From a virus, in IMG/VR virus record IMGVR_UViG_3300037842_000770, positions 1-38,197 of that record: 38,197 bases of DNA. One strand, given 5' to 3'. The notes under the pieces are model-generated. The model saw only the letters and a program-made list of their open reading frames with translations. It did not search any database and was not told where the DNA came from. This document shows, one piece after another, positions 1 to 38,197 of the stretch (within the stretch, counting starts at the first letter, position 1; each line of letters begins with the position of its first letter). The position numbers and the translations under genes were made by a program.

Positions 1-1004
1 GAGACGCGTTCTTAAACATGGGTAGAGAAGATACGGCAACGTCAGGTTTAGTTGCTTTAAATGGTAACACTTTAGGGAATACAGTAGATGTTTCGTTTAC
101 GGTTTCTGTTCCAATTGAAGGACTGGTGGCATCTAATCTAGTTTCAACGACTGAGACTTTGTTTACTTCTGACTTAGTAACAGCAAACTTATCCTCATCA
201 ATTGCGACAACTTCAGGATCTTACCACGACATTATTTTTAATAACGCTGTTAAAAATGAGTTAGGGACTTATAACGCTGCAACTGGTGAATATACAGTTC
301 CTAAAACAGGTGAGTTAAATATTAATATGCAGGTAACTTGGGGAGCCTCTACAGCAGGCGCAAGACAATTGTACTTAGTTAGAAACGGTACAAGAACTGA
401 GGGTATAGGCACTACTCCAGCTCCAACAGCAGCTTTAGATTTTTCACAACAGGGCTCAGTTACAATCCAAGTTACTAAGGGCGAGTTAATAAAGTTTCAA
501 GCAAGGCAAACAACAGGTGGTGCTTTAACTTTAGGGGGATTGTCAACAAATTGGAATTATATTAGTTTTGAAATGAAAAAAGATCTTTCAGTGTTCGGCA
601 TCTTTGGCGAAACTGCGAAAACAGAAGCTAAATCATCTACCTCCGTTGGTTGGCCTTTTACATCAAATACATATGGAGTTATTACCAGTATAGTCGTTCC
701 TCCTGGGGAGCATGACTTAGAATTTAGTGTTATAGGTCAAACAACATCAGCCAATGGCGTGTATGATTTAAGAGCTGCGATTGATACTGTTGGAGGGACA
801 TCAACTCCACCTTTAAATTATTCAGACAATGCAATGTTCGATGTTTACACTAACGTCTCATTTGAAGTTAAGACTGTAACTTTAACAGGATATAAGGTGA
901 GCCCGTCCGTTGAAACAACTTATTATTTAAAGGGTTTTGTTAACGGAACTATAGCTAATCAAAATTTAACTGCTTATAAATTTTCAGCAAGGAAGTGGAA
1001 GTAA
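1..1004 (+). CDS. Tail fibre / surface protein, C-terminal part (5' end outside window)
   Basis: The frame is open from position 3, upstream of the first ATG at 18, so this is the 3' part of a longer gene. It begins in a stretch ending with 'VPIEG', typical of the end of a beta-rich repeat domain in phage fibres. About residues 60-190 form a C1q/TNF-like jelly roll: 'YHDIIFNNAVKNE' followed by 'Y(N)AATGEYTVPKTGEL', the usual C1q signature. A second beta-rich region of about 130 residues follows. C1q-like folds in phage fibres usually trimerise and bind receptors; that role here is inference. Its missing 5' part is probably the gene cut at the right end of the window (37130 onward), which ends in the domain expected just before this one. 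The stop overlaps the next start (TAATG). Confidence 0.75.
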   Translation, partial: DAFLNMGREDTATSGLVALNGNTLGNTVDVSFTVSVPIEGLVASNLVSTTETLFTSDLVTANLSSSIATTSGSYHDIIFNNAVKNELGTYNAATGEYTVPKTGELNINMQVTWGASTAGARQLYLVRNGTRTEGIGTTPAPTAALDFSQQGSVTIQVTKGELIKFQARQTTGGALTLGGLSTNWNYISFEMKKDLSVFGIFGETAKTEAKSSTSVGWPFTSNTYGVITSIVVPPGEHDLEFSVIGQTTSANGVYDLRAAIDTVGGTSTPPLNYSDNAMFDVYTNVSFEVKTVTLTGYKVSPSVETTYYLKGFVNGTIANQNLTAYKFSARKWK

Positions 1005-10887: not shown

Positions 10888-11069
10888 CGCTTTAACCCCT
10901 TTATAAATCGACGCTTCCCATGGGCTTTCAGCACCCTCTCAACCACGTCACCCTCTGTTGCTGCATAGAGTAGATCACTTACATGCCCCACTGTTTCACG
11001 CTCAGCCTTTATGGTAGAGCTACCCTTGCGCTTAACTATCTCCCTGCATATATCCGTTATAGTTTTCAT
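10884..11069 (-). CDS. Small basic hypothetical protein, 61 aa
   Basis: A basic helical protein ('DICREIVKRKGSSTIKAE', C terminus 'HGKRRFIKGLKR') that may contact DNA or RNA. It starts inside the stop of the XRE-type regulator (ATGA at 11066-11069), so it could be co-translated with it. No family recognised. Confidence 0.65.
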   Translation of the reverse strand: MKTITDICREIVKRKGSSTIKAERETVGHVSDLLYAATEGDVVERVLKAHGKRRFIKGLKR

Positions 11070-11314
11070 CGCTCGTTCATCTTCTTGGTTATTTTCTCTT
11101 TATAATCCTTAACCATTAGGTTGATTATTCGATTAATCTCAAACCCATAGATGGGGGCAAGGAGCTTAACCATCTTCACGCTAACCGGGGCCTTACCAAG
11201 TTCAATGTGTGACAGATAATGCGGACGCCTCATCTTCAATATTAAACCCACAGCCTCTTGGGTTAGTCCTTTTTTTAGTCGCGCCTTTCTCAGCGCCGTC
11301 GCTGCATACATCAT
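11066..11314 (-). CDS. XRE/Cro-type helix-turn-helix regulator
   Basis: 82 aa. Residues about 6-60 fit the lambda Cro/CI-type HTH: 'LRKARLKKGLTQEAVGLIL' (helices 1-2), 'RPHYLSHIELGKAPVS' (recognition helix and 'E.GK' turn), then 'VKLLAPIYG'. The tail is basic ('KDYKEKITKKMNER'). There is no dimerisation or autocleavage domain, so it is Cro-like rather than CI-like. It is the third gene from the leftward promoter at 11844-11872 and could bind the palindrome at 11897-11911. The start overlaps the upstream stop (ATGA). Confidence 0.85.
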   Translation of the reverse strand: MMYAATALRKARLKKGLTQEAVGLILKMRRPHYLSHIELGKAPVSVKMVKLLAPIYGFEINRIINLMVKDYKEKITKKMNER

Positions 11315-14128: not shown

Positions 14129-14290
14129 CGTTTTTTTTGCGTTTCCGCAATTGCGGTAATATTGTTTTTTGCGGTAATAAAATTTATCCAATAATTCTAT
14201 TGGCTTATCTGTCTTATTACCGGTTACCTCTATTTCTCTATTAAAAGAAAAGAAAATATAATAAGGGGGTGTGTATAAGGAATAAGCACA

Positions 14291-14330
14291 TATAGGGGGA
14301 TATAGGGGGATATGGGGGAAGGGTATAGGG
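14291..14330 (+). repeat. Tandem TATAGGGGGA repeats with G-runs
   Basis: TATAGGGGGA occurs twice in tandem (14291-14300, 14301-14310) and is followed by the variants TATGGGGGAA and GGGTATAGGG. With GGGGG at 14265-14269, these G-runs could fold into a G-quadruplex on this strand. Confidence 0.7.
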
Positions 14331-14380
14331 AGTACGTTTTTTACGGTAACAGGTAGCCTTGGTTTTTTTGTATATTTGTA

Positions 14381-14409
14381 TTTACATTTTTACATACCTT
14401 GGTTAGATT
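14381..14409 (+). promoter_or_regulatory. Rightward late promoter candidate with leaderless start
   Basis: TTTACA (14381-14386), a 17-base spacer and TAGATT (14404-14409), with the terminase ATG at 14416, six bases further on. The geometry matches the leftward early promoter, and no Shine-Dalgarno sequence precedes this ATG. Confidence 0.55.
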
Positions 14410-14415
14410 TTCTTT

Positions 14416-14988
14416 ATGGCTAAGAAGATTAATACCAAGGCAGATAGGTATGATATATTTTGCACTGAATATCTAAAAGACTTTAACGCATCAAGGGCCG
14501 CAGGAGTTGCAGGAAGCGAAGCTAAGCAACTCGGAGTGGCCGGACATGAACTACTAAATAATCCTAAAGTTAAGACGCGCCTAGCCAAACTTATTAAAGA
14601 TAGAAACGATTCTGTAAAAGTTGACATGTTTTATGTGGTTGAAAAACTTAAGCAGGTCATGGAGGCAGATTTTACTGAGTGGTCTGATCTTGGTAAGGAC
14701 GGGATGGACATATCAAAATTATCTGATATGCCTAAACACATAAGACAAATGGTTTCTACTATGAAGAGGACTGACACAACTTCACGCGACGGTGTAACAA
14801 CGTCTAGATTTGAATTTAAGCTTATGGATAAAACTAAGTGCCTTGAAATGTTAGGTAAGCATGTTGGTGCTTTTACAGATAAGTTTCATATTGATGTTGA
14901 TGTGAAGGTAAAAACTTTTACCGACATGGTTTTAGAGGCTAAGCAAAAACGTCTAATAGATGTTACGCCTGATGAAGATGAGGAATAA
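14416..14988 (+). CDS. terS: Terminase small subunit
   Basis: 190 aa. The N-terminal HTH region follows the Terminase_2 pattern: 'RYDIFCTEYLKDFNASRAA', 'GVAGHELLNNPKVKTRLAKLI' and 'MFYVVEKLKQVMEAD'. The C-terminal part has 'LEMLGKHVGAFTDK', also typical, and ends in an acidic tail. It should recognise the packaging site and present DNA to the large subunit. The ATG has no Shine-Dalgarno sequence and lies just after a promoter-like element. The large-subunit gene is 650 bases downstream, separated by a leftward two-gene insert. Confidence 0.88.
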   Translation: MAKKINTKADRYDIFCTEYLKDFNASRAAGVAGSEAKQLGVAGHELLNNPKVKTRLAKLIKDRNDSVKVDMFYVVEKLKQVMEADFTEWSDLGKDGMDISKLSDMPKHIRQMVSTMKRTDTTSRDGVTTSRFEFKLMDKTKCLEMLGKHVGAFTDKFHIDVDVKVKTFTDMVLEAKQKRLIDVTPDEDEE

Positions 14989-15527: not shown

Positions 15528-15637
15528 ATAAATCCTTTGTTAGTTACATAATTTTTATCGGTATTTTAAGTTAAAAACTTTAGCTTTTATTTATGTAATT
15601 GCAAAGTATATACAAACTGTCTTAATGTAATACAATT

Positions 15638-17245
15638 ATGAGCGACGTAACCTTAATAGATGAATATAGAATAAAGCCTGATGAATTTTTTGAGGATGTT
15701 CTTGGAATTGACACTCTAGAGTGTTATCAGTCTGACGTCTTAAGGCGTGTAGCTAAGTATAATCGCGTATTGATACGTTCATCTCATAGTACTGGTAAAA
15801 CATATATGATGGCTCGTATTGCTCTATGGTTTTACTCATGCTTTGAGAACTCTCTAGTAATAACTACAGCGCCAACACATAAGCAAGTTGAGAAACTACT
15901 TTGGGGTGAGCTTAGGGATGCTTATAAAAACTCAAAGATGCCTCTTGGTGGGGTGCTATTAAACACTCAACTTAAAAAGTCTGACAAGTGGTATTGCTTA
16001 GGGTTGTCTCCTCAAAAAACTGCTGGCTCATCAGATGAGCAACAGGGCTCAAGCTTTCAGGGATATCATTCAGATCATGTATTAATTATTTTCGATGAGG
16101 CGACGGGCGTACCTCCTGATATTTGGAAAATGGCTGAGGGGTTAATGACCTCCGGTAAAATTGTTAAGTTCGTAGCTATCGCCAACCCAACTACTCGCGC
16201 GTGTGAGTTTTATGAGAAGTCAAAGTTAGCATCATGGCATAGTATACATTTAAGTTGTTTTAACTCTCCGAACTTAAGGGCTAATGGTTTTTTTAATAAA
16301 GAAGATATTCAGGATGAGATCGACCGCTTAATGATGATGCCAGAAGATGAGCGGCTTATGGAGATATCGAGTTATGCACAGCCTACTCCACATCTTGCAT
16401 CTGCTCAATGGGCTATTGAATTTTGCATGGAGTGGGGTTTAGACCATCCTCTAGTAGTATCTAAAGTATTCGGCGAGTTCCCAGATGACGATGATTCTGT
16501 ATTAATACCGATGAATTTAGTAACTGCGGCGTTTGAAAGAGACACTGAGCTTGAGGAAACAAGCTTAAGATGCATAGGCGTCGATGTGGCTCGCTACGGT
16601 TCCGATAAGAGCGTTTTATGTGAGATGGTTGGCACTAAGCATACCGATCTATTAGCAGTCGCAAAGCGCAGTACCACGGTGGTTACAGGGCATGTGATAA
16701 ATATGATAAACAACGATCACGTAGCTAGAGACACAGTTGTATTAGTTGATGCAACAGGTATAGGTGCGGGTGTGTTTGATAACCTTATTGAAAAGCAGCA
16801 AGAAGGAATAATTTCTAAAAAAGTAGATATTAGAGAAATACATTTCGGAGCATCACCCGTAAACGAGGATGAAAAAGATCAAGAGATAATTGACCAAGAT
16901 AAATCGCGTTATGCCAACCTTAAGGCTAGGATGTTTCAACTATTGTCTAACGATATGCGTTATTGCATAGATTTAATAAATGACTCAAACTTCATGAAAG
17001 AGCTTCCAACGATAAAGTCGTTCCCTGATTCAAAAGGTCGGTTACGAATAGAGTCTAAAGAGGATTATAAAAAGAGGACTGGCCGACCATCACCGGATTA
17101 TTCGGATGCGTTAGCTTTGTGTAATTTAGGTCGTTATGTTAATATTACATACGGTAGTTTTAATAAAAATATATCATCTGAGCCCATAGTTAAGCAGAAA
17201 AAAAGAAGAGAGAGACGATCAGGGGTGAAGGTGAGTGAATATTAG
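15638..17245 (+). CDS. terL: Terminase large subunit
   Basis: 535 aa. ATPase domain: Walker A 'SSHSTGKT' (about 47-54), 'ITTAPTHKQVEKLLWGEL', Walker B 'LIIFDEATGV' (about 148-157) and coupling 'AIANPT'. Nuclease domain: 'GVDVARYGSDKS' (Asp about 314), 'LVDATGIGAGVFD' and 'SPDYSDALALCN' near the end. This motor fills the head and cuts the DNA. The ATG at 15638 lacks a clear Shine-Dalgarno sequence. The C-terminal tail is Lys/Arg-rich ('KQKKRRERRSG'). Confidence 0.95.
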   Translation: MSDVTLIDEYRIKPDEFFEDVLGIDTLECYQSDVLRRVAKYNRVLIRSSHSTGKTYMMARIALWFYSCFENSLVITTAPTHKQVEKLLWGELRDAYKNSKMPLGGVLLNTQLKKSDKWYCLGLSPQKTAGSSDEQQGSSFQGYHSDHVLIIFDEATGVPPDIWKMAEGLMTSGKIVKFVAIANPTTRACEFYEKSKLASWHSIHLSCFNSPNLRANGFFNKEDIQDEIDRLMMMPEDERLMEISSYAQPTPHLASAQWAIEFCMEWGLDHPLVVSKVFGEFPDDDDSVLIPMNLVTAAFERDTELEETSLRCIGVDVARYGSDKSVLCEMVGTKHTDLLAVAKRSTTVVTGHVINMINNDHVARDTVVLVDATGIGAGVFDNLIEKQQEGIISKKVDIREIHFGASPVNEDEKDQEIIDQDKSRYANLKARMFQLLSNDMRYCIDLINDSNFMKELPTIKSFPDSKGRLRIESKEDYKKRTGRPSPDYSDALALCNLGRYVNITYGSFNKNISSEPIVKQKKRRERRSGVKVSEY

Positions 17246-19657: not shown

Positions 19658-20892
19658 GTTTATTAAAATCCTTATTAATGGATAAGAAATTTGTAGAGAT
19701 GGAAGAAGAGGTCGATCAAATTATTGCCGACAATGATGTAGAGCCAGGATCTATGGGTCAGCGTATTGAATTTGATGGTACTGTATTTTCTGATAAAGAT
19801 CAGGTTGACGACTTCTTAAGAGCTCATGTCTATACGGATGCGGTAATAGATGAGACTAAAAATGGTTATGCAGTTATTTTATTTGATGAGATTGGTTTTA
19901 TTGAAAGCACCATGCGTAAGATTAAGATTAGAGATGGCGTTACGATTTATGTTGGATTGCTTAGGCCTATGAGTCCTGACAACCCACTTTTATTCAACGT
20001 AAAGGACGGCGATAGTCTAAAGCTAAGCGCTGAATTACCTTACGTCATAGAGCTTGCTACGGTTGTTGATGGTTTCCATGCAGCCTATGGTGAGGTTAAG
20101 ATCACGCAAAAGAATTTATTAAGTTTTAAAGAAAATTTCGAGAATAAAGTAGTAGGAGTCGATCTATCAATAGACTTTGATCATGAAACGAGAGAAGCGG
20201 CGGGTTGGATCAAAGAAGTCTTTTTGAGTGACGACGGCAATACTTTATTCGGGGTTATTAAATGGACACCTAAAGGAGCTGTTAGTTTAACAGACCGAGA
20301 GTTTAGGTATTTGAGCCCGGAATTTCATCCTAATTGGATCCACCCACATTCGGGCGTAGCCCATGGGCCGACTCTATTAGGCGCAGCATTAGTCAATCGA
20401 CCATTCTTAAAAATGGACGCGATTGTTGGTTTAAACGAAAGCAAAAATAAAGGAGTTCCTAAAATGGAAAAAACTATTGCTTTAGCCGACCACAACCAAC
20501 AGATTGTTGATATGCAAAAAAATATCGACGGTTTGAAGTTGAGTGAAGGCACAGCTGTTACTACTGCAAAGAACTTGCAGTCTAAAGTTGAAACTCTGTC
20601 TAAAGAAAATACAGAGTTAAAACTATCAGCTGAGAAAAAAGAAAAAGAAGCGAAGCACAGTGTGCTTTTTAGCGAAGGTAAGATCAACAAAGCTCAACTT
20701 GACGCTTTGAACGAAGGTAAAGACCTTCTAGATGTATTATCTTTAAATGATAAATTAAACACAACGCCTAAAGGTTCTAAAGAAGCTGACAACAAGATTG
20801 TTATTAAGCTTACTGATGCTGAAAAAGCAATGGCTAAGAAAATGGAGCTTACAGAAGAAGAGTTCTATCAGGCAAACGAGGGGGCTGAATAA
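19654..20892 (+). CDS. Mu gpI-like prohead protease with scaffold-type C terminus
   Basis: 412 aa. The protease half (about 1-265) resembles Mu gpI: 'YGEVKITQKNLLSFKENFE', 'VGVDLSIDFDHETREAAGWIKEV', 'EFRYLSPEF' and 'VAHGPTLLGAALVNRPFL'. The last 140 residues are a charged coiled coil ('LQSKVETLSKENTELKL'), as in scaffold proteins, and can also be translated alone from ATG 20464 (separate entry). AAGGAG precedes the ATG, and the start overlaps the portal stop (ATGA). Confidence 0.9.
   Translation: MSLLKSLLMDKKFVEMEEEVDQIIADNDVEPGSMGQRIEFDGTVFSDKDQVDDFLRAHVYTDAVIDETKNGYAVILFDEIGFIESTMRKIKIRDGVTIYVGLLRPMSPDNPLLFNVKDGDSLKLSAELPYVIELATVVDGFHAAYGEVKITQKNLLSFKENFENKVVGVDLSIDFDHETREAAGWIKEVFLSDDGNTLFGVIKWTPKGAVSLTDREFRYLSPEFHPNWIHPHSGVAHGPTLLGAALVNRPFLKMDAIVGLNESKNKGVPKMEKTIALADHNQQIVDMQKNIDGLKLSEGTAVTTAKNLQSKVETLSKENTELKLSAEKKEKEAKHSVLFSEGKINKAQLDALNEGKDLLDVLSLNDKLNTTPKGSKEADNKIVIKLTDAEKAMAKKMELTEEEFYQANEGAE
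20464..20892 (+). CDS. Embedded in-frame scaffold protein (internal start)
   Basis: 142 aa, same frame as the protease gene. The site AAAGGAG (20449-20455) lies eight bases before ATG 20464, as good as any in the module. The product starts 'MEKTIALADHNQ' and contains the coiled coil and a Lys/Glu-rich C terminus with 'LTEEEFYQANEGAE'. Nested scaffolds within protease genes are known in lambda (Nu3) and Mu (gpZ), so this is a likely second product. Confidence 0.72.
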   Translation: MEKTIALADHNQQIVDMQKNIDGLKLSEGTAVTTAKNLQSKVETLSKENTELKLSAEKKEKEAKHSVLFSEGKINKAQLDALNEGKDLLDVLSLNDKLNTTPKGSKEADNKIVIKLTDAEKAMAKKMELTEEEFYQANEGAE

Positions 20893-21308
20893 TGGCTTTA
20901 TCAAACAGTGTAAATGTAGACGAAAAAGACGGTGTTGTTCACAGTGCTCCAGTTATCGCTTCTGATATTATATATCGTGGCGCGATTGTTATGTACTCTA
21001 CAACAGGATACCTTGCTCCAGCGGCTACGGGCGCGGGTAATATTTTTGCAGGTATTTCTGAAGAAGAGATCGACAATTCTGCTGGTGCAGCTGGCGATCT
21101 TAACTGTAGATACAAGAAAGAGGGATGCTATTTATTAACAGGTGCGGGTCTTGCTCAAACTGACATAGGCGAATTTGTTTATGCATCAGCTGATGACACT
21201 ATCACTAAAACCTCTACTAACAACCCTATGGTTGGTCAAATCGTTGAATACGTTTCGGCTACTCAAGTATGGGTTAAACTAGAGCGCAATCCTGTTGCGG
21301 CAGCTTAA
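20892..21308 (+). CDS. Head decoration protein (DUF2190-like)
   Basis: 138 aa. It starts by TAATG overlap with the protease stop. The pattern 'ASDIIYRGAIVMYSTTGYLAPA', 'IFAGISEEEIDNSAG', 'FVYASADDTITKTSTNN' and 'VGQIVEYVSATQVWVKL' fits small beta-rich capsid decoration proteins placed just before the major capsid gene. It should bind and stabilise the capsid surface. Assignment of the exact DUF is from memory of pattern, so only the role is well supported by context. Confidence 0.82.
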   Translation: MALSNSVNVDEKDGVVHSAPVIASDIIYRGAIVMYSTTGYLAPAATGAGNIFAGISEEEIDNSAGAAGDLNCRYKKEGCYLLTGAGLAQTDIGEFVYASADDTITKTSTNNPMVGQIVEYVSATQVWVKLERNPVAAA

Positions 21309-21324
21309 TTAAGGAGGATTTAAA

Positions 21325-22227
21325 ATGGGTATCGTAAGTAATAAATTACTTTTAGAGAAAGGGTTACGCGCTGATTTCATGAAGAAATTCAATAACGGCG
21401 AAAATCCTCAAGAGATCATGGGTATGATCATGGAAACAGACTCTAGTGCTGATTCTGAGAAATACGGATGGTTAGGTAATTCTCCTCAAATGACCGAGTG
21501 GTTGGACGAGAGAAAATTAAAAGGTCTTAAAGACTTTGATTATAGTATCGCAAATAAAGATTACGAAGCTACACTTAAGGTTAATAAGAATGCAATGGAT
21601 GACGATCAATTAGGGGCTGTTAAAGTTCGTATTTCTGATCTTGCTTCTGTTGCTAGAAATCATCCTAGAAAGTTATTCTTTGACCAGTTAAAAGCTGGTG
21701 AAGTTGATCTTGGATATGATGGTCTTCCTTTTTTCTCTTTAGCACATGATGAGTCGGGAGTTAACCAACTTAATCTTGCTACAGCTACTATTGCTGGGAC
21801 TAGCCAAACAGTTGCTGAGTTTAAAGCTGAGTTTCAAACTGCGAGACAAGGTCTTAGAGTTTTAACTGACGATCAAGGCGAGCCAAGAAACGAAGGAAAC
21901 ATGGACTTAATCGTTGTATGTTCTCCTGACCTTCAAAACGTTGTTGACGAGGTTTTAGGCGCGGATTTAATTAACAGTACTACCAACACTCTAAAAGGTG
22001 CTGCTAAGTCTGTTATTTCTTCTCGTTTAACTGGTAACGACTGGTACTTGCTTAATGCTTCTGGCGAATTAAAGCCTTTAGTATTACAAAAGCGTAAAGC
22101 GATTACATTTGAGTCTTTGGACAAAGGTGATAGAGCTTTCATGCGTAAAGAATTACTATTCGGTGTTGATTACCGTGTAGGGTTTGGATACGGCGTTTGG
22201 TATAAAGCATTCAAAATTAAACATTAA
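21325..22227 (+). CDS. Major capsid protein, Mu gpT-like
   Basis: 300 aa, with a strong AAGGAGGATTTAAA before the ATG. The Mu gpT family pattern is clear: 'YGWLGNSPQMTEWLDERKLKGLKDFDYSI', 'YEATLKVNKNAMDDDQLGAV' (positions about 48-95), 'HPRKLFFDQLKAG' and 'LPFFSLAH'. The C terminus ends 'GVDYRVGFGYGVWYKA'. It forms the icosahedral shell. A strong terminator follows, so this and the protease/decoration genes may be expressed above later genes. Confidence 0.93.
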   Translation: MGIVSNKLLLEKGLRADFMKKFNNGENPQEIMGMIMETDSSADSEKYGWLGNSPQMTEWLDERKLKGLKDFDYSIANKDYEATLKVNKNAMDDDQLGAVKVRISDLASVARNHPRKLFFDQLKAGEVDLGYDGLPFFSLAHDESGVNQLNLATATIAGTSQTVAEFKAEFQTARQGLRVLTDDQGEPRNEGNMDLIVVCSPDLQNVVDEVLGADLINSTTNTLKGAAKSVISSRLTGNDWYLLNASGELKPLVLQKRKAITFESLDKGDRAFMRKELLFGVDYRVGFGYGVWYKAFKIKH

Positions 22228-29427: not shown

Positions 29428-30315
29428 ATGGCTTTATCAACTAACAGGATTGTATATGGTATTCATTCAATGGCACCATATAGAAGATCCGATAATTTAC
29501 CTTACGGTATCTTAAAAGTAATCGGTGGTGGTACGCTGAGTTTGTCTGCTGAATTTGAAGACCTTTTTGGTGGTTCTAATAAATTCGCTTGGGCATCTGA
29601 AGCTAAAACTATCGCAAGTGAGTTTACATCAACAGTAAAAAGTTATCCTGACTTTTTGTTTGAGCTATACATGGGAGCAAGCGTAACCGCTACAGCTGCC
29701 AGTGCTACTGGTTCAATCATTGAGGCTTTCGCTAACTCCAATGGGGTATCTGTATTAGATGCTACAACTGGTGTTGCTTCGGCTTTAGTTAAGGCTGGCT
29801 CTGAAGCTGAATTAAAAGACGGTTTATACGTTGTTAAAGCTGTAAGTGCTACAACAGTAGACGTTTATGCTTTATCTGACGTTGCGTTTGATAAAGGTAC
29901 AGCGATCAGCTTTGAGGACGATGCTCTAAAAATCACAGCGTCTGCTTTAACTATCACAGCGTCTACTGCTGTTGATGTTCCAAACACAGGTATTGAGTTA
30001 ACTGGTGGTTCTGGAGCTATCGCTTTAGTGACTGGAGACACAGCTTTCTATCGTGTATCTGCGGCTCATGGTGGTGTAAGTGAAATCGTTATCGGTGGTA
30101 ATGCTACTCAGTTCGCTGAGCATGGTATTATTGCACTTGGTGCAAAGCGTGCTGATTCATCTTTGTTTGAAATCGAGATGTATAAAGCCGTTGGAGCTGG
30201 GTTTCCGATAGCTCTTGAGGAAACTGTTTTCAGTATTCCTGAGCTAACTATTAAGCTTCTATATGATGAGGTTCAAGACAGAGTTGCTAAGATCACAGCA
30301 ACTGCTGGCGCATAG
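29428..30315 (+). CDS. Major tail tube protein
   Basis: 295 aa, AGGGAGGG before the ATG. It opens 'NRIVYGIHSMAPYRRSDNLPYGILKVIGGG' at about 6-35, and contains 'KTIASEFTSTVKSYPDFLFELYMGAS', both typical of long-tail tube proteins. An Ig-like or beta-insert of Ala/Thr/Val-rich sequence follows (about 80-200), and the end has 'GVSEIVIGG' and 'VFSIPELTIKLLYDE'. Position before the chaperone pair and tape measure confirms it. A terminator follows. Confidence 0.88.
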   Translation: MALSTNRIVYGIHSMAPYRRSDNLPYGILKVIGGGTLSLSAEFEDLFGGSNKFAWASEAKTIASEFTSTVKSYPDFLFELYMGASVTATAASATGSIIEAFANSNGVSVLDATTGVASALVKAGSEAELKDGLYVVKAVSATTVDVYALSDVAFDKGTAISFEDDALKITASALTITASTAVDVPNTGIELTGGSGAIALVTGDTAFYRVSAAHGGVSEIVIGGNATQFAEHGIIALGAKRADSSLFEIEMYKAVGAGFPIALEETVFSIPELTIKLLYDEVQDRVAKITATAGA

Positions 30316-30330
30316 TATTCATAATCAAAA

Positions 30331-30358
30331 AAAAGGGTCCCAAGGACGGGGCCCTTTT
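30331..30358. terminator. Bidirectional terminator between tube gene and leftward RHH gene
   Basis: AAAAGGGTCCC (30331-30341) pairs with GGGGCCCTTTT (30348-30358), with one G-T pair and a six-base loop. Leftward transcripts also meet eight T after the stem. It ends the tail-tube transcript and the small leftward gene. Confidence 0.85.
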
Positions 30359-30509
30359 ACTTATTCGTCTTATGATTCATTGCAGTATATATAATCCACT
30401 TACTTAAATTCCCATTGGCATATAGTCCAGCTTTCAATTTCATTTTATTATAATCTGTTTGGTTAACTCTGAAGCTAACCATTTTAGTTTTGTTGTCTTT
30501 GACCTTCAT
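30357..30509 (-). CDS. Ribbon-helix-helix small protein (second), opposite strand, 50 aa
   Basis: A short ORF on the strand opposite the late genes. 'KTKMVSFRVNQTDYNKMKLKAGLYANGNLSKWII' (about 8-41) is a textbook RHH: strand 'VSFRV', helix, turn 'ANGN', helix 'LSKWIIYTAM'. GAGGGCATTGAG precedes the ATG. A 12-base palindrome lies upstream (30524-30535). It probably acts as a dimeric repressor, perhaps of its own promoter and of the nearby rightward promoter. Its stop lies in the terminator. Confidence 0.78.
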   Translation of the reverse strand: MKVKDNKTKMVSFRVNQTDYNKMKLKAGLYANGNLSKWIIYTAMNHKTNK

Positions 30510-30523
30510 CTCAATGCCCTCAT

Positions 30524-30535
30524 TTGTATATACAA
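30524..30535. promoter_or_regulatory. Palindromic operator candidate
   Basis: TTGTATATACAA is a perfect 12-base palindrome just upstream of the leftward RHH start and about 15 bases before the rightward -35 box. Its position suits autoregulation by the RHH protein. GTATATACAA recurs before the terminase large-subunit gene (15606-15615). Confidence 0.6.
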
Positions 30536-30546
30536 CTGAGATTAAT

Positions 30547-30574
30547 TTGTAATATAAAATAGATCAACTATAAT
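30547..30574 (+). promoter_or_regulatory. Rightward promoter of the tail-chaperone to fibre operon
   Basis: TTGTAA (30547-30552), a 16-base spacer and a consensus TATAAT (30569-30574). The chaperone ATG is at 30594 with AGGAG between. It restarts transcription after the bidirectional terminator. Confidence 0.75.
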
Positions 30575-30593: not shown

Positions 30594-30995
30594 ATGTCTA
30601 TTGACTACAAAGATTTGAATCCAGTTGAGGCTACGGCGGTAATAAATAATCAATCGCTTGAGTTTAATAAGTTTAGTTTAATGGCTCAATGTTGGGCTGA
30701 TAAGGAATTTGCAACTGCTGATGAGCCTAGTGGTGTTATTGTTTTATCTGGCCTTATTCAGGACTGGACGCAACCTGAGCCCATGTTGAAACTCTCTTAT
30801 TATTTATTAAAAGATAAAAGTTTATTTAAGAGCTTCCAAGAGTATCTAGAATTTGTAGATAGTCATAAATCTAAGTGGACTAATGTAAAGGCTATATATG
30901 AGGCTGTTGTTTATACGCTTGGTGTGAGTCAGCCACAGATAGATGAAATGGAGGAGGAGCTAGAGTTAAAAAAATCCTTAGCGGTGGGAAGTTAA
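30594..30995 (+). CDS. Tail assembly chaperone, short form (gpG-like)
   Basis: 133 aa. Its position directly before the tape measure, its size and its acidic helical makeup ('LGVSQPQIDEMEEELELKK') fit the short tail assembly chaperone of siphoviruses. It should bind the tape measure protein during tail assembly. Near its end the codons TTA AAA AAA form the slippery sequence described in the next entry. The promoter and AGGAG lie upstream. Confidence 0.8.
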   Translation: MSIDYKDLNPVEATAVINNQSLEFNKFSLMAQCWADKEFATADEPSGVIVLSGLIQDWTQPEPMLKLSYYLLKDKSLFKSFQEYLEFVDSHKSKWTNVKAIYEAVVYTLGVSQPQIDEMEEELELKKSLAVGS

Positions 30996-31288
30996 AAAAG
31001 AAATCTTGCTATGGTGAGATTTTCGATCTTTTTGCCGCACGGTACAGTTGGACTCTAGATTATTTTTACAGTTTAACTCTAAGACAGATTTTTCAGTTAC
31101 ACGGGTCTTTAGAGAATGGAAAGATTAGGGACTTTGAAGCGCAGGCTAGTTTACATGACAAGAAATTGTCAGACACAGTGAAGCCGGTGAAGATAGATAA
31201 AAAAGATAAGGATCTTTATAAGAAAAAAGAAGATGAGCTTATGGATAAACTCAGAAGAAGACACAAGGAAGCGGTAAAAAATGGCTAA
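30594..31288 (+). CDS. Tail assembly chaperone, frameshift fusion (gpGT-like)
   Basis: A -1 frameshift on A AAA AAA (30968-30974) fuses 127 codons of the short form to a 104-codon downstream frame that has no start of its own. The extension includes 'GEIFDLFAARYSWTLDYFYSL' in its first third (about 20 residues after the slip) and a very basic end ('DKLRRRHKEAVKNG'). It runs to TAA 31286-31288, overlapping the tape measure start by eight bases. The length, position and slippery site match the classic G/GT programmed frameshift of lambda-like tails. Confidence 0.82.
30968..30974 (+). promoter_or_regulatory. Programmed -1 frameshift slippery site
   Basis: Seven A, read as A AAA AAA in the chaperone frame, 19 bases before the zero-frame stop codon. 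After the slip the next codon is ATC (30974-30976), entering the open downstream frame. Confidence 0.8.
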
Positions 31289-35905: not shown

Positions 35906-36703
35906 ATGGGGACTAATTCCATACCATCGGCAACCACAGGGAACGTAATCCCAGCGTCCGATCATAATTCAATTCAAGAGGCAATGGCAGGAGACTTAGT
36001 TCCAAGAAACGTTAGTGGTGTTGCCACTGCTGATGGCGGAGATGTTGGAACGACGGCGTTACCATTTAAGAGGGCTGCTATTACTGCAGGTTATTTCTTC
36101 GCAGGTCAGATTATTTCAATGCATACCTATAACGGCTTATTAAGTCCTGGTCATGGTTGGATGAAAATGGACGGTCGTATAATAAATGAAGCTAACTACA
36201 ACACCGAGCATGGGGCTGGCTCTTGGGCCACATATGTTATTTCAAGTGCTCTTAATGGGAAGTATTTGCCTGACACTACTAGTAGATTATTCTTGTCTGG
36301 TAGGTCCACAACAACGGAGGACGGCTCTGTAGCTATAGCCACTGAAGGTAACTCGTTTAATCAGATAGACCTTCAGCATAGTCATACGATTTCAAATCAT
36401 ACGCACACAATCCCTGATCATAATCACCAATGGTATGATAATACTGGTACTGGAGCAACTCCAGATAATACTTACAACTCCGGTGGAGGCTCTACAAACA
36501 TAACCTTGAACTCTAAAACTGGCGGGAACCATGTTGTTATGAGTAATTCTGCGGGGAATGCACCAGCTGATTCTTATACCGACACACATGTGTTCGGAAC
36601 AACTGGAGCAGGTGGAACTTCTCCAACAGCGAATGCTTTGACAACTAACCAAGACATTCAGCCTTATTCTATCGCAGTAATTTACTACATGAGGATTATA
36701 TAA
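35906..36703 (+). CDS. Tail fibre with collar domain and His-rich metal site
   Basis: 265 aa, AAGGAGCAATAGA before the ATG. It begins 'NVIPASDHNSIQEAMAGDLVPRN', a fibre N-terminal anchor pattern. A tail-collar-like domain ('GWMKMDGRIINEANY', 'YLPDTTSRLFLSGR') follows. His-X-His repeats ('HSHTISNHTHTIPDHNH', about 153-169) resemble the metal-binding tip of T4 gp12-type fibres. The C terminus 'IQPYSIAVIYYMRII' is also usual for collar fibres. It should contact the host surface. Confidence 0.88.
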   Translation: MGTNSIPSATTGNVIPASDHNSIQEAMAGDLVPRNVSGVATADGGDVGTTALPFKRAAITAGYFFAGQIISMHTYNGLLSPGHGWMKMDGRIINEANYNTEHGAGSWATYVISSALNGKYLPDTTSRLFLSGRSTTTEDGSVAIATEGNSFNQIDLQHSHTISNHTHTIPDHNHQWYDNTGTGATPDNTYNSGGGSTNITLNSKTGGNHVVMSNSAGNAPADSYTDTHVFGTTGAGGTSPTANALTTNQDIQPYSIAVIYYMRII

Positions 36704-36704
36704 A

Positions 36705-37121
36705 ATGGCATCAATATCTAGTTTAATACCAACGAGGGTAAACGGTCAGACCATTTTCGCGGCCTGGTTTAACACAATAAGGTCAGTTTTAGAAACACTA
36801 AACGGTGCTGAAGCTACAACACTAACGGCTTTCTCAGGCATAGCTTCACAGACTGGTGCTAACGTAACCGATCTTGTTTTCAGCAGTGCATCAACGAGAA
36901 GGGCGGATGTGGAATACGTTATCGTGACGGCAACGAAGGTCGAGTCTGGAAGTTTCGTCTTATTATATGACGGCACGAACTGGACTTTTTACGGTGGTTC
37001 TGTTCAAGGGGTTGATTCTCTAATCTCATTAGATGTTAATTCTGGCACGGGTCAGGTTGAGTATGATAGCGATGCTGAGACCTTTACATTAAATTATAAA
37101 ACGACTACTTTTAACATATAG
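36705..37121 (+). CDS. Fibre-associated structural protein, 138 aa
   Basis: It starts 'ASISSLIPTRVNGQTIFAAWFNTIRS', a motif like the anchor of the previous fibre. The rest is beta-rich with 'SASTRRADVEYVIVTA', 'GSFVLLYDGTNWTFYGG' and 'DAETFTLNYKTTTFNI'. This repeated-strand pattern is typical of short fibre adaptors or trimerisation domains. Only a weak Shine-Dalgarno sequence is present, so translation may be coupled to the gene before. Confidence 0.72.
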   Translation: MASISSLIPTRVNGQTIFAAWFNTIRSVLETLNGAEATTLTAFSGIASQTGANVTDLVFSSASTRRADVEYVIVTATKVESGSFVLLYDGTNWTFYGGSVQGVDSLISLDVNSGTGQVEYDSDAETFTLNYKTTTFNI

Positions 37122-37129
37122 GATTTGAA

Positions 37130-38197
37130 ATGAAAAAAAGATATTTATTACTTATACCATTCTTGTTTTTACTGACGGCGGCCTCCCCACAAATATACAG
37201 GTCTCTTCAGATCGGTTTCGGTGTGCAACCTTCAAGCTCGTTGTTTGATGTTTATTCAACCACTCAAGGATCTAGACCATATCCAACTATGACGAGTGCT
37301 GAGCGGGACGCGGTAGCAACTCCCGCTACTGGTTTAGGTGTTTATAACTCCACCGACGATAAGATTAATTTCTATAACGGCACGGCATGGTTTGAGCCTG
37401 GTTCTGTTCTTGATTATCAGACTTTCGTAGAGCTTGCGGCCACGCCTACCACGCCATCGGCTGGTGAGAAGTTATTATATTCTAAGACCGACGGCAAGGT
37501 ATATACTCTAAACTCAGCAGGTAGTGAAGTTGAGATAGGTGCCGGTGCCGGTGGAGGCGGCGAGGGTGGAGTTAATTATGTGATTAACTCTGATGCTGAA
37601 ACCAACATTGATGATGTGACAGTAACTGCGAATATAACCAAGGCCGCAGAGACTACGGCTCCTTTGTTTGATACTCAGTCTTTTAAATTAACAACTGCTA
37701 CGATTGCAACCACGGCTGATTATTTCGAATTTGACATGAACAATGTGGATCTTGTTTATGTGGAGGGAAGCAGGGAATTACTCGTTGGATTCTGGTATAA
37801 AACAGATGCCAACTACACATCAGATGATTACCAGATTGTTTTAAGAAACGTAGATACGCCTGGCGATATTATAATTACAAATGAAAACAGCGGTAAGCTT
37901 CAAGCCTCCACTACGTCGAAGTATTTTTTAGGCAAGGCTCAGGTCGCTGATCCTGATAATACTTATTCATTAAGAGGCAAGGTGTTGGTCGCGCCAACCG
38001 TTGCGTCATTAATCACAATGGACAAGGTTACGGTCGGTCCAGAGGAGTTCGCTCCCGGTGCTATAATTACCGAGTGGGAAGCTTATACGCCAACTACTCA
38101 AGGTTTCGGTACAGTTTCTAGTGTAGATTGTTGGTGGAGGCGAGTTGGTAGTAATTACGAACTGTCTATAGACTTTAACACAGGGACTAATACAGCA
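37130..38197 (+). CDS. Large tail fibre / surface protein with signal peptide (3' end outside window)
   Basis: 356 residues are visible to the window end with no stop. The N terminus 'MKKRYLLLIPFLFLLTAAS' looks like a Sec signal peptide, which is unusual for a virion protein. Next come short repeats of a fibre type ('MTSAERDAVATPATGLGVYNS', 'KINFYNGTAWF'), a Gly-rich linker, and a beta-rich domain with 'NYVINSDAETN', 'ELLVGFWYKT' and 'VGPEEFAPGAIITEWEAYTP'. It stops inside 'WWRRVGSNYELSIDFNTGTNTA', the start of a domain whose expected end is at the beginning of this window. AGGATTTGAA precedes the ATG. Confidence 0.8.
   Translation, partial: MKKRYLLLIPFLFLLTAASPQIYRSLQIGFGVQPSSSLFDVYSTTQGSRPYPTMTSAERDAVATPATGLGVYNSTDDKINFYNGTAWFEPGSVLDYQTFVELAATPTTPSAGEKLLYSKTDGKVYTLNSAGSEVEIGAGAGGGGEGGVNYVINSDAETNIDDVTVTANITKAAETTAPLFDTQSFKLTTATIATTADYFEFDMNNVDLVYVEGSRELLVGFWYKTDANYTSDDYQIVLRNVDTPGDIIITNENSGKLQASTTSKYFLGKAQVADPDNTYSLRGKVLVAPTVASLITMDKVTVGPEEFAPGAIITEWEAYTPTTQGFGTVSSVDCWWRRVGSNYELSIDFNTGTNTA

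Follow-up and report, generated by a model that had tools for sequence, protein, structure and literature searches.

A small RHH protein encoded against the tail genes as a probable autoregulated repressor of late promoters in a phage family

Introduction

In tailed phages, late-gene expression is commonly described as being turned on by activators, antiterminators or new polymerases. In the viral DNA analysed here (38,197 nucleotides, in the following called the window) a very small gene for a ribbon-helix-helix (RHH) protein is encoded in the tail region on the strand opposite to the late genes. This raises the question which promoters such a regulator acts on. An earlier note, made from the letters of this DNA, regarded the gene as a self-contained regulator inside the tail operon, which faces a palindrome and a promoter. 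This proposal was examined by comparison with relatives. We consider it likely, from the compared sequences, that the protein is an autoregulated repressor of late promoters, namely of its own gene, terS and terL.

Results and discussion

The RHH gene and its neighbours

The reverse-strand gene claimed before is present. Its open reading frame (30357..30509, minus strand) has an ATG start, codes for 50 aa and is located between the tube and the tail chaperone genes. The putative tail tube gene (29428..30315, plus strand) was assigned from gene order and the earlier note, without a family match. On the other side follows the gene of a gpG-like tail assembly chaperone (30594..30995, plus strand). 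At its end the -1 frameshift site A-AAA-AAA (30968-30974) allows reading into the frame ending at 31288. No match was found for the chaperone protein with family models; a -1 slippery site A-AAA-AA(A/G) closes the chaperone gene in the same phase in all 17 relatives considered (17/17).

Relatives of the tube protein with 33-100% identity were found in IMG/VR. Nearly all of those holding the junction carry an opposite-strand RHH gene between tube and chaperone genes, so that gene, place and strand are conserved in the compared sequences; it is absent from the junction in L017, L024 and L057. Each of the 16 contigs searched gave exactly one RHH match. The RHH proteins of the relatives are only 22-48% identical to that of the window, and the frame has therefore been kept despite strong divergence. 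Annotated phage records gave no match at the DNA or protein level and no close homologues of the RHH or the tube protein. Among genome assemblies, the tube protein matched two Bdellovibrionota MAGs (Bdellovibrionales 44%, Oligoflexia 28%; loci L023 and L024). These two contigs suggest predatory bacteria and related organisms as hosts of the phage family. For the locus L018 (6001-7142) the match to the tube gene exceeds that of the relatives by about 260 bp and does not form one simple frame, possibly due to an insert or intron.

In L044 (4954-5779), L045, L046 and L049/L050 extra leftward genes adjoin the RHH gene. They comprise a lipoprotein-like and a small charged open reading frame in L044/L045 and others in L046 and L049/L050, and are possibly cargo or superinfection-exclusion genes. 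The RHH protein might thus control a cargo or immunity module, either as a moron or by Aca-like control of an anti-defence gene, which came to lie in the tail region by chance. The phage P22 immI region, which adjoins sieA, would be in line with this explanation as well. We regard it as improbable, since the RHH gene stands alone at the junction in most relatives, including the window, and the operators described below point to packaging genes. A toxin-antitoxin system was rejected, as no conserved partner gene adjoins the RHH gene, and an Aca-type regulator was rejected, as no conserved gene accompanies it.

Family and predicted fold of the protein

By sequence, the best family for the protein are the NikA/MobC-type relaxosome RHH proteins. 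The Pfam model of NikA-like RHH proteins (PF21983) matched with E 4e-4 and 20.9 bits, which does not reach the curated cut-off of 27. The same model matches 15 of 16 members of the RHH family described here, at best with E 6.5e-9. In PHROGs no informative family was found, and a sequence search of solved structures returned only NikA (E 0.19). Unlike NikA/MobC-type proteins, the window protein has only 50 aa and remains below the cut-off; no relaxase was among the matches of the scanned window proteins.

The AlphaFold model (pLDDT 84) has an extended N-terminal stretch followed by two helices (residues 17-30 and 35-45); it is a monomer, and the strand of the RHH fold forms only in the dimer. 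Structural alignment gave Z scores of 6.1 for ArtA, 5.7 for CopG and 5.6 for Arc, with 40-41 residues of the model covered by CopG and Arc. As far as modelled, the protein conforms to the strand-helix-helix monomer of about 45-50 residues of Arc/MetJ/CopG proteins. CopG and ArtA are small RHH plasmid repressors of the same fold and similar size. In contrast to the window protein, they serve plasmid copy-number or transfer control and no late phage regulon.

In the alignment with Arc (residues 8..48 to 7..46) the positions M10, S12 and R14 correspond to Q9, N11 and R13. These residues of Arc read the DNA (1PAR). Hence, M10, S12 and R14 are the predicted DNA contacts in the beta-ribbon of the window protein. 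R14 is invariant across 16 aligned RHH proteins.

The predicted operator in front of the RHH gene

The perfect palindrome said to face the gene was indeed found at 30524-30535. It reads TTGTATATACAA, has 12 bp, is of the type TGT-N4-ACA and is unique in the window as exact match. The rightward promoter could also be located (TTGTAA-16-TATAAT, 30547..30574, plus strand), but the description as consensus was too strong; with 10/12 positions it is near consensus. In total, the window contains 12 perfect 12-bp palindromes, and between 25 and 36 kb 32 promoter-like matches were counted versus 28.4 expected from shuffles. Both elements are at chance level, and therefore neither is evidence without comparison; the palindrome alone and the promoter alone were rejected as such.

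What exceeds chance is the conservation of the whole arrangement among the relatives together with the operator motif. Of the 24 divergent regions between RHH and chaperone genes, 17 have kept a TGT-N3/4-ACA operator, whereas dinucleotide shuffles gave a mean of 1.3 and a maximum of 6; the 24 regions are not fully independent, as some relatives are close. Several intergenic regions contain two copies at a distance of 12-13 bp, the arrangement expected if two RHH dimers bind. A minimal repressor of the Arc/CopG/NikA type would accordingly bind TGT-N3/4-ACA operators.

The leftward promoter predicted for the RHH gene (TTGATC-17-TAATCT, 30539..30567, minus strand) is weak (7/12) and overlaps the rightward one. 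Its start is near 30532 and thus inside the operator. In an automatic scan of the window other sites were ranked above it; the relatives show the same geometry with better promoters. The best leftward start is at most 4 bp from the operator centre in 12 of 20 loci (3.9 expected, P 6e-5), with all start sites being predictions from the promoter consensus. The RHH protein bound to its own start site would turn the leftward promoter off.

Variation of operator and protein

Operator and protein vary together among the relatives. In a scan of all columns of the RHH alignment, columns 12 and 10 (Arc N11 and Q9) showed the strongest association with the presence of GTTTAAC/GTTAAAC (z 4.6 and 4.3). 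Proteins with Gly or Ala at position 12 have GTTTAAC/GTTAAAC in 8 of 10 cases, those with other residues in 0 of 14; this operator class was picked after inspection of the data, and the all-column scan guards against the bias in part. The operator type is scattered on the tube tree with seven changes, at least four of them on supported branches. Only four independent pairs are on supported branches, of which most show the same direction and none the opposite one; with four pairs a sign test cannot reach 0.05. By this indirect evidence from comparison, positions 10 and 12, which track the operator type best, behave as alternating strand residues reading DNA should. From this a preference can be predicted: TGTATATACA for the window protein (M and S at positions 10 and 12) versus TGTTTAACA for a relative with F and G. 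The earlier proposal that a DNA-binding regulator acts on the palindrome is thus well supported by sequence comparison, through the conserved operator and its co-variation with the contact residues.

Terminator and predicted tail promoter

A hairpin at 30331..30358 (11 pairs, 6 G-C) is located between the stops of the tube and RHH genes and has TTTT on the plus side and TTTTTTTT on the minus side. This agrees with the suggested common, bidirectional terminator. A hairpin was seen in all 27 loci examined, weak in a few of them. No RNA families and no tRNAs were found in the window. As the hairpin separates the tube from the RHH gene, transcription of the tail unit probably depends on a separate promoter. 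The chaperone/tape-measure unit would start behind the tube terminator, at the rightward promoter overlapping the RHH promoter.

The operator covers the predicted RHH start. Relative to the predicted tail start of the window, it is located some 50 bp upstream (near -51). Hence, a direct block of the tail promoter is not predicted by the geometry; the bound protein might activate this promoter, repress it or leave it unaffected. In six loci the operator centre is at -48 to -51.5 from the predicted rightward start. This spacing would also suit an activator or a dual regulator, which stimulates rightward tail transcription directly or by clearing the leftward promoter and represses terS and terL. 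Among RHH proteins, AmrZ is an example of action in both directions; it represses itself and has several targets (PMC3325190). In contrast to the 50-aa window protein, AmrZ is a bacterial global regulator of 108 aa with a C-terminal domain; a protein of 50 aa offers no activation surface to judge. The common spacing may be no more than a consequence of the promoter overlap, and the spacer sites at terL described below fit repression only. We consider dual regulation possible, but do not favour it; it overlaps with the reading as a late-promoter repressor, so that the likelihoods given to the two do not add up to one whole. At the tail junction, the proposed late-promoter repressor would block the leftward promoter; with this competitor silenced, tail transcription may be spared or even favoured.

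A comparable arrangement is found in immI of phage P22, the region of the repressors Mnt and Arc (BK000583). There, the RHH gene mnt lies opposite to the late genes between the structural genes 16 and 9, and overlapping divergent promoters have operators between them; in the window the promoters are consensus predictions. Its target differs from those proposed for the window: immI acts on the antirepressor ant and serves to maintain lysogeny. The window has no ant; the neighbours are the frameshifting tail chaperone and the tape measure, and matching operators are found at terS and terL.

Operator-like sites at terS and terL

These further sites do not agree with the proposed self-contained regulator. 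An operator-like site TTGTATTTACAT (14376..14387) lies before terS (14416-14988) and overlaps a predicted -35 element TTTACA. Two others, AAGTATATACAA (15604..15615) and TGTAATACA (15626..15634), lie before terL (15638-17245). When upstream DNA was compared with the operator region, terL and terS took ranks 1 and 2 of the 58 genes in the window. Among the 58 genes of G004, terL took the first rank and terS was tied for second or third place; in G002, terS was in the top two of 51. In G005, terS was tied second or third of 51, and the first rank belonged to a methyltransferase-like gene behind a terL-type promoter. Of eight phages examined for terS, G003 and G006 were negative and G001 and G008 weak. 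For terS, cognate partners were superior to swapped ones, with just 177 of the 40320 permutations fitting as well. For terL, the observed value was reached by 2 of 24 partner permutations; the terL site of G008 was picked by eye.

The sites at terS or terL in G002, G004, G005 and G008 begin 26-28 bp upstream of the start codon, and most terS/terL operators are within the spacer between -35 and -10. In the terL-type promoters of G004, G005 and G008 (TTGTCA-18-TAAAAT or TAAACT), the 18-bp spacer contains the operator. Judged from the predicted promoters, this is the geometry of a repressor. The predicted -10 element is about 7 nt from the ATG and no ribosome-binding site is evident, so the mRNAs of this type may be leaderless. 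As no promoter-sized gap is evident in the window from terL to the tube terminator, the operators mark the starts of three late units.

The protein could nevertheless act mainly on its own expression and that of the adjacent tail operon, with the sites at terS and terL being due to chance or belonging to another factor. The centring of the operator on the RHH start, the divergent overlapping promoters and the absence of a terS/terL site in some relatives are consistent with this restricted role. It is rather unlikely in view of the ranks of terL and terS, at the very top in the window and near it in G004 and G005, and of the phage-specific operator variants recurring at terS. With the late-promoter repressor, the RHH protein would repress in trans the promoters opening the terS unit and the terL(-portal-head-tube) unit.

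Some observations were made next to these sites. In G005 (the record of L011, late genes turned to plus) the DNA methyltransferase-like gene at 36695-37429 lies directly behind the terL-type promoter and operator and was apparently inserted before terL. In G008 (the record of L015, late genes turned to plus) a further TGTTAAACA site at 19769-19777 is located 43 bp ahead of a large gene (19812-21506), which may be an additional target. Some 100 bp ahead of terS, at 14290-14330 of the window, there are short tandem-like GGGGGATATA repeats, which might be a site of packaging or replication.

Possible role during infection

The likeliest role of such a repressor would be to keep the packaging genes low early in infection. 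Control of late-gene timing by the RHH protein is plausible; how repression is relieved, e.g. by titration through replicated genomes, is a guess. More tentatively, and with somewhat less than even confidence, a one-protein late-gene circuit can be proposed for what is probably a lytic phage family. An RHH repressor of 50-80 aa would have operators at every late-unit start (terS, terL, tail), RHH and tail expression would be mutually exclusive via the overlapping divergent promoters, and co-evolution of operator and protein would give each phage its private specificity.

A repressor of late promoters would also suit a prophage, and relatives were found in two MAGs. Lysogeny control in a temperate phage is still very unlikely in our opinion, because no tyrosine integrase was detected in 15 phage contigs, which are possibly incomplete.

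A search of openly licensed papers turned up no RHH protein that represses terminase or tail promoters. If the proposal is true, a tiny dedicated repressor at packaging and tail promoters would represent a different logic of late-gene control. Furthermore, an overlooked small gene would gain a function across a whole phage family, and DNA recognition could be studied with the series of matched pairs of RHH protein and operator that the relatives naturally provide. In the leftward early region of the window, the gene at 11066-11314 (minus strand) resembles phage transcriptional repressors (PHROG 3, E 1.9e-6) and is possibly a second regulator.
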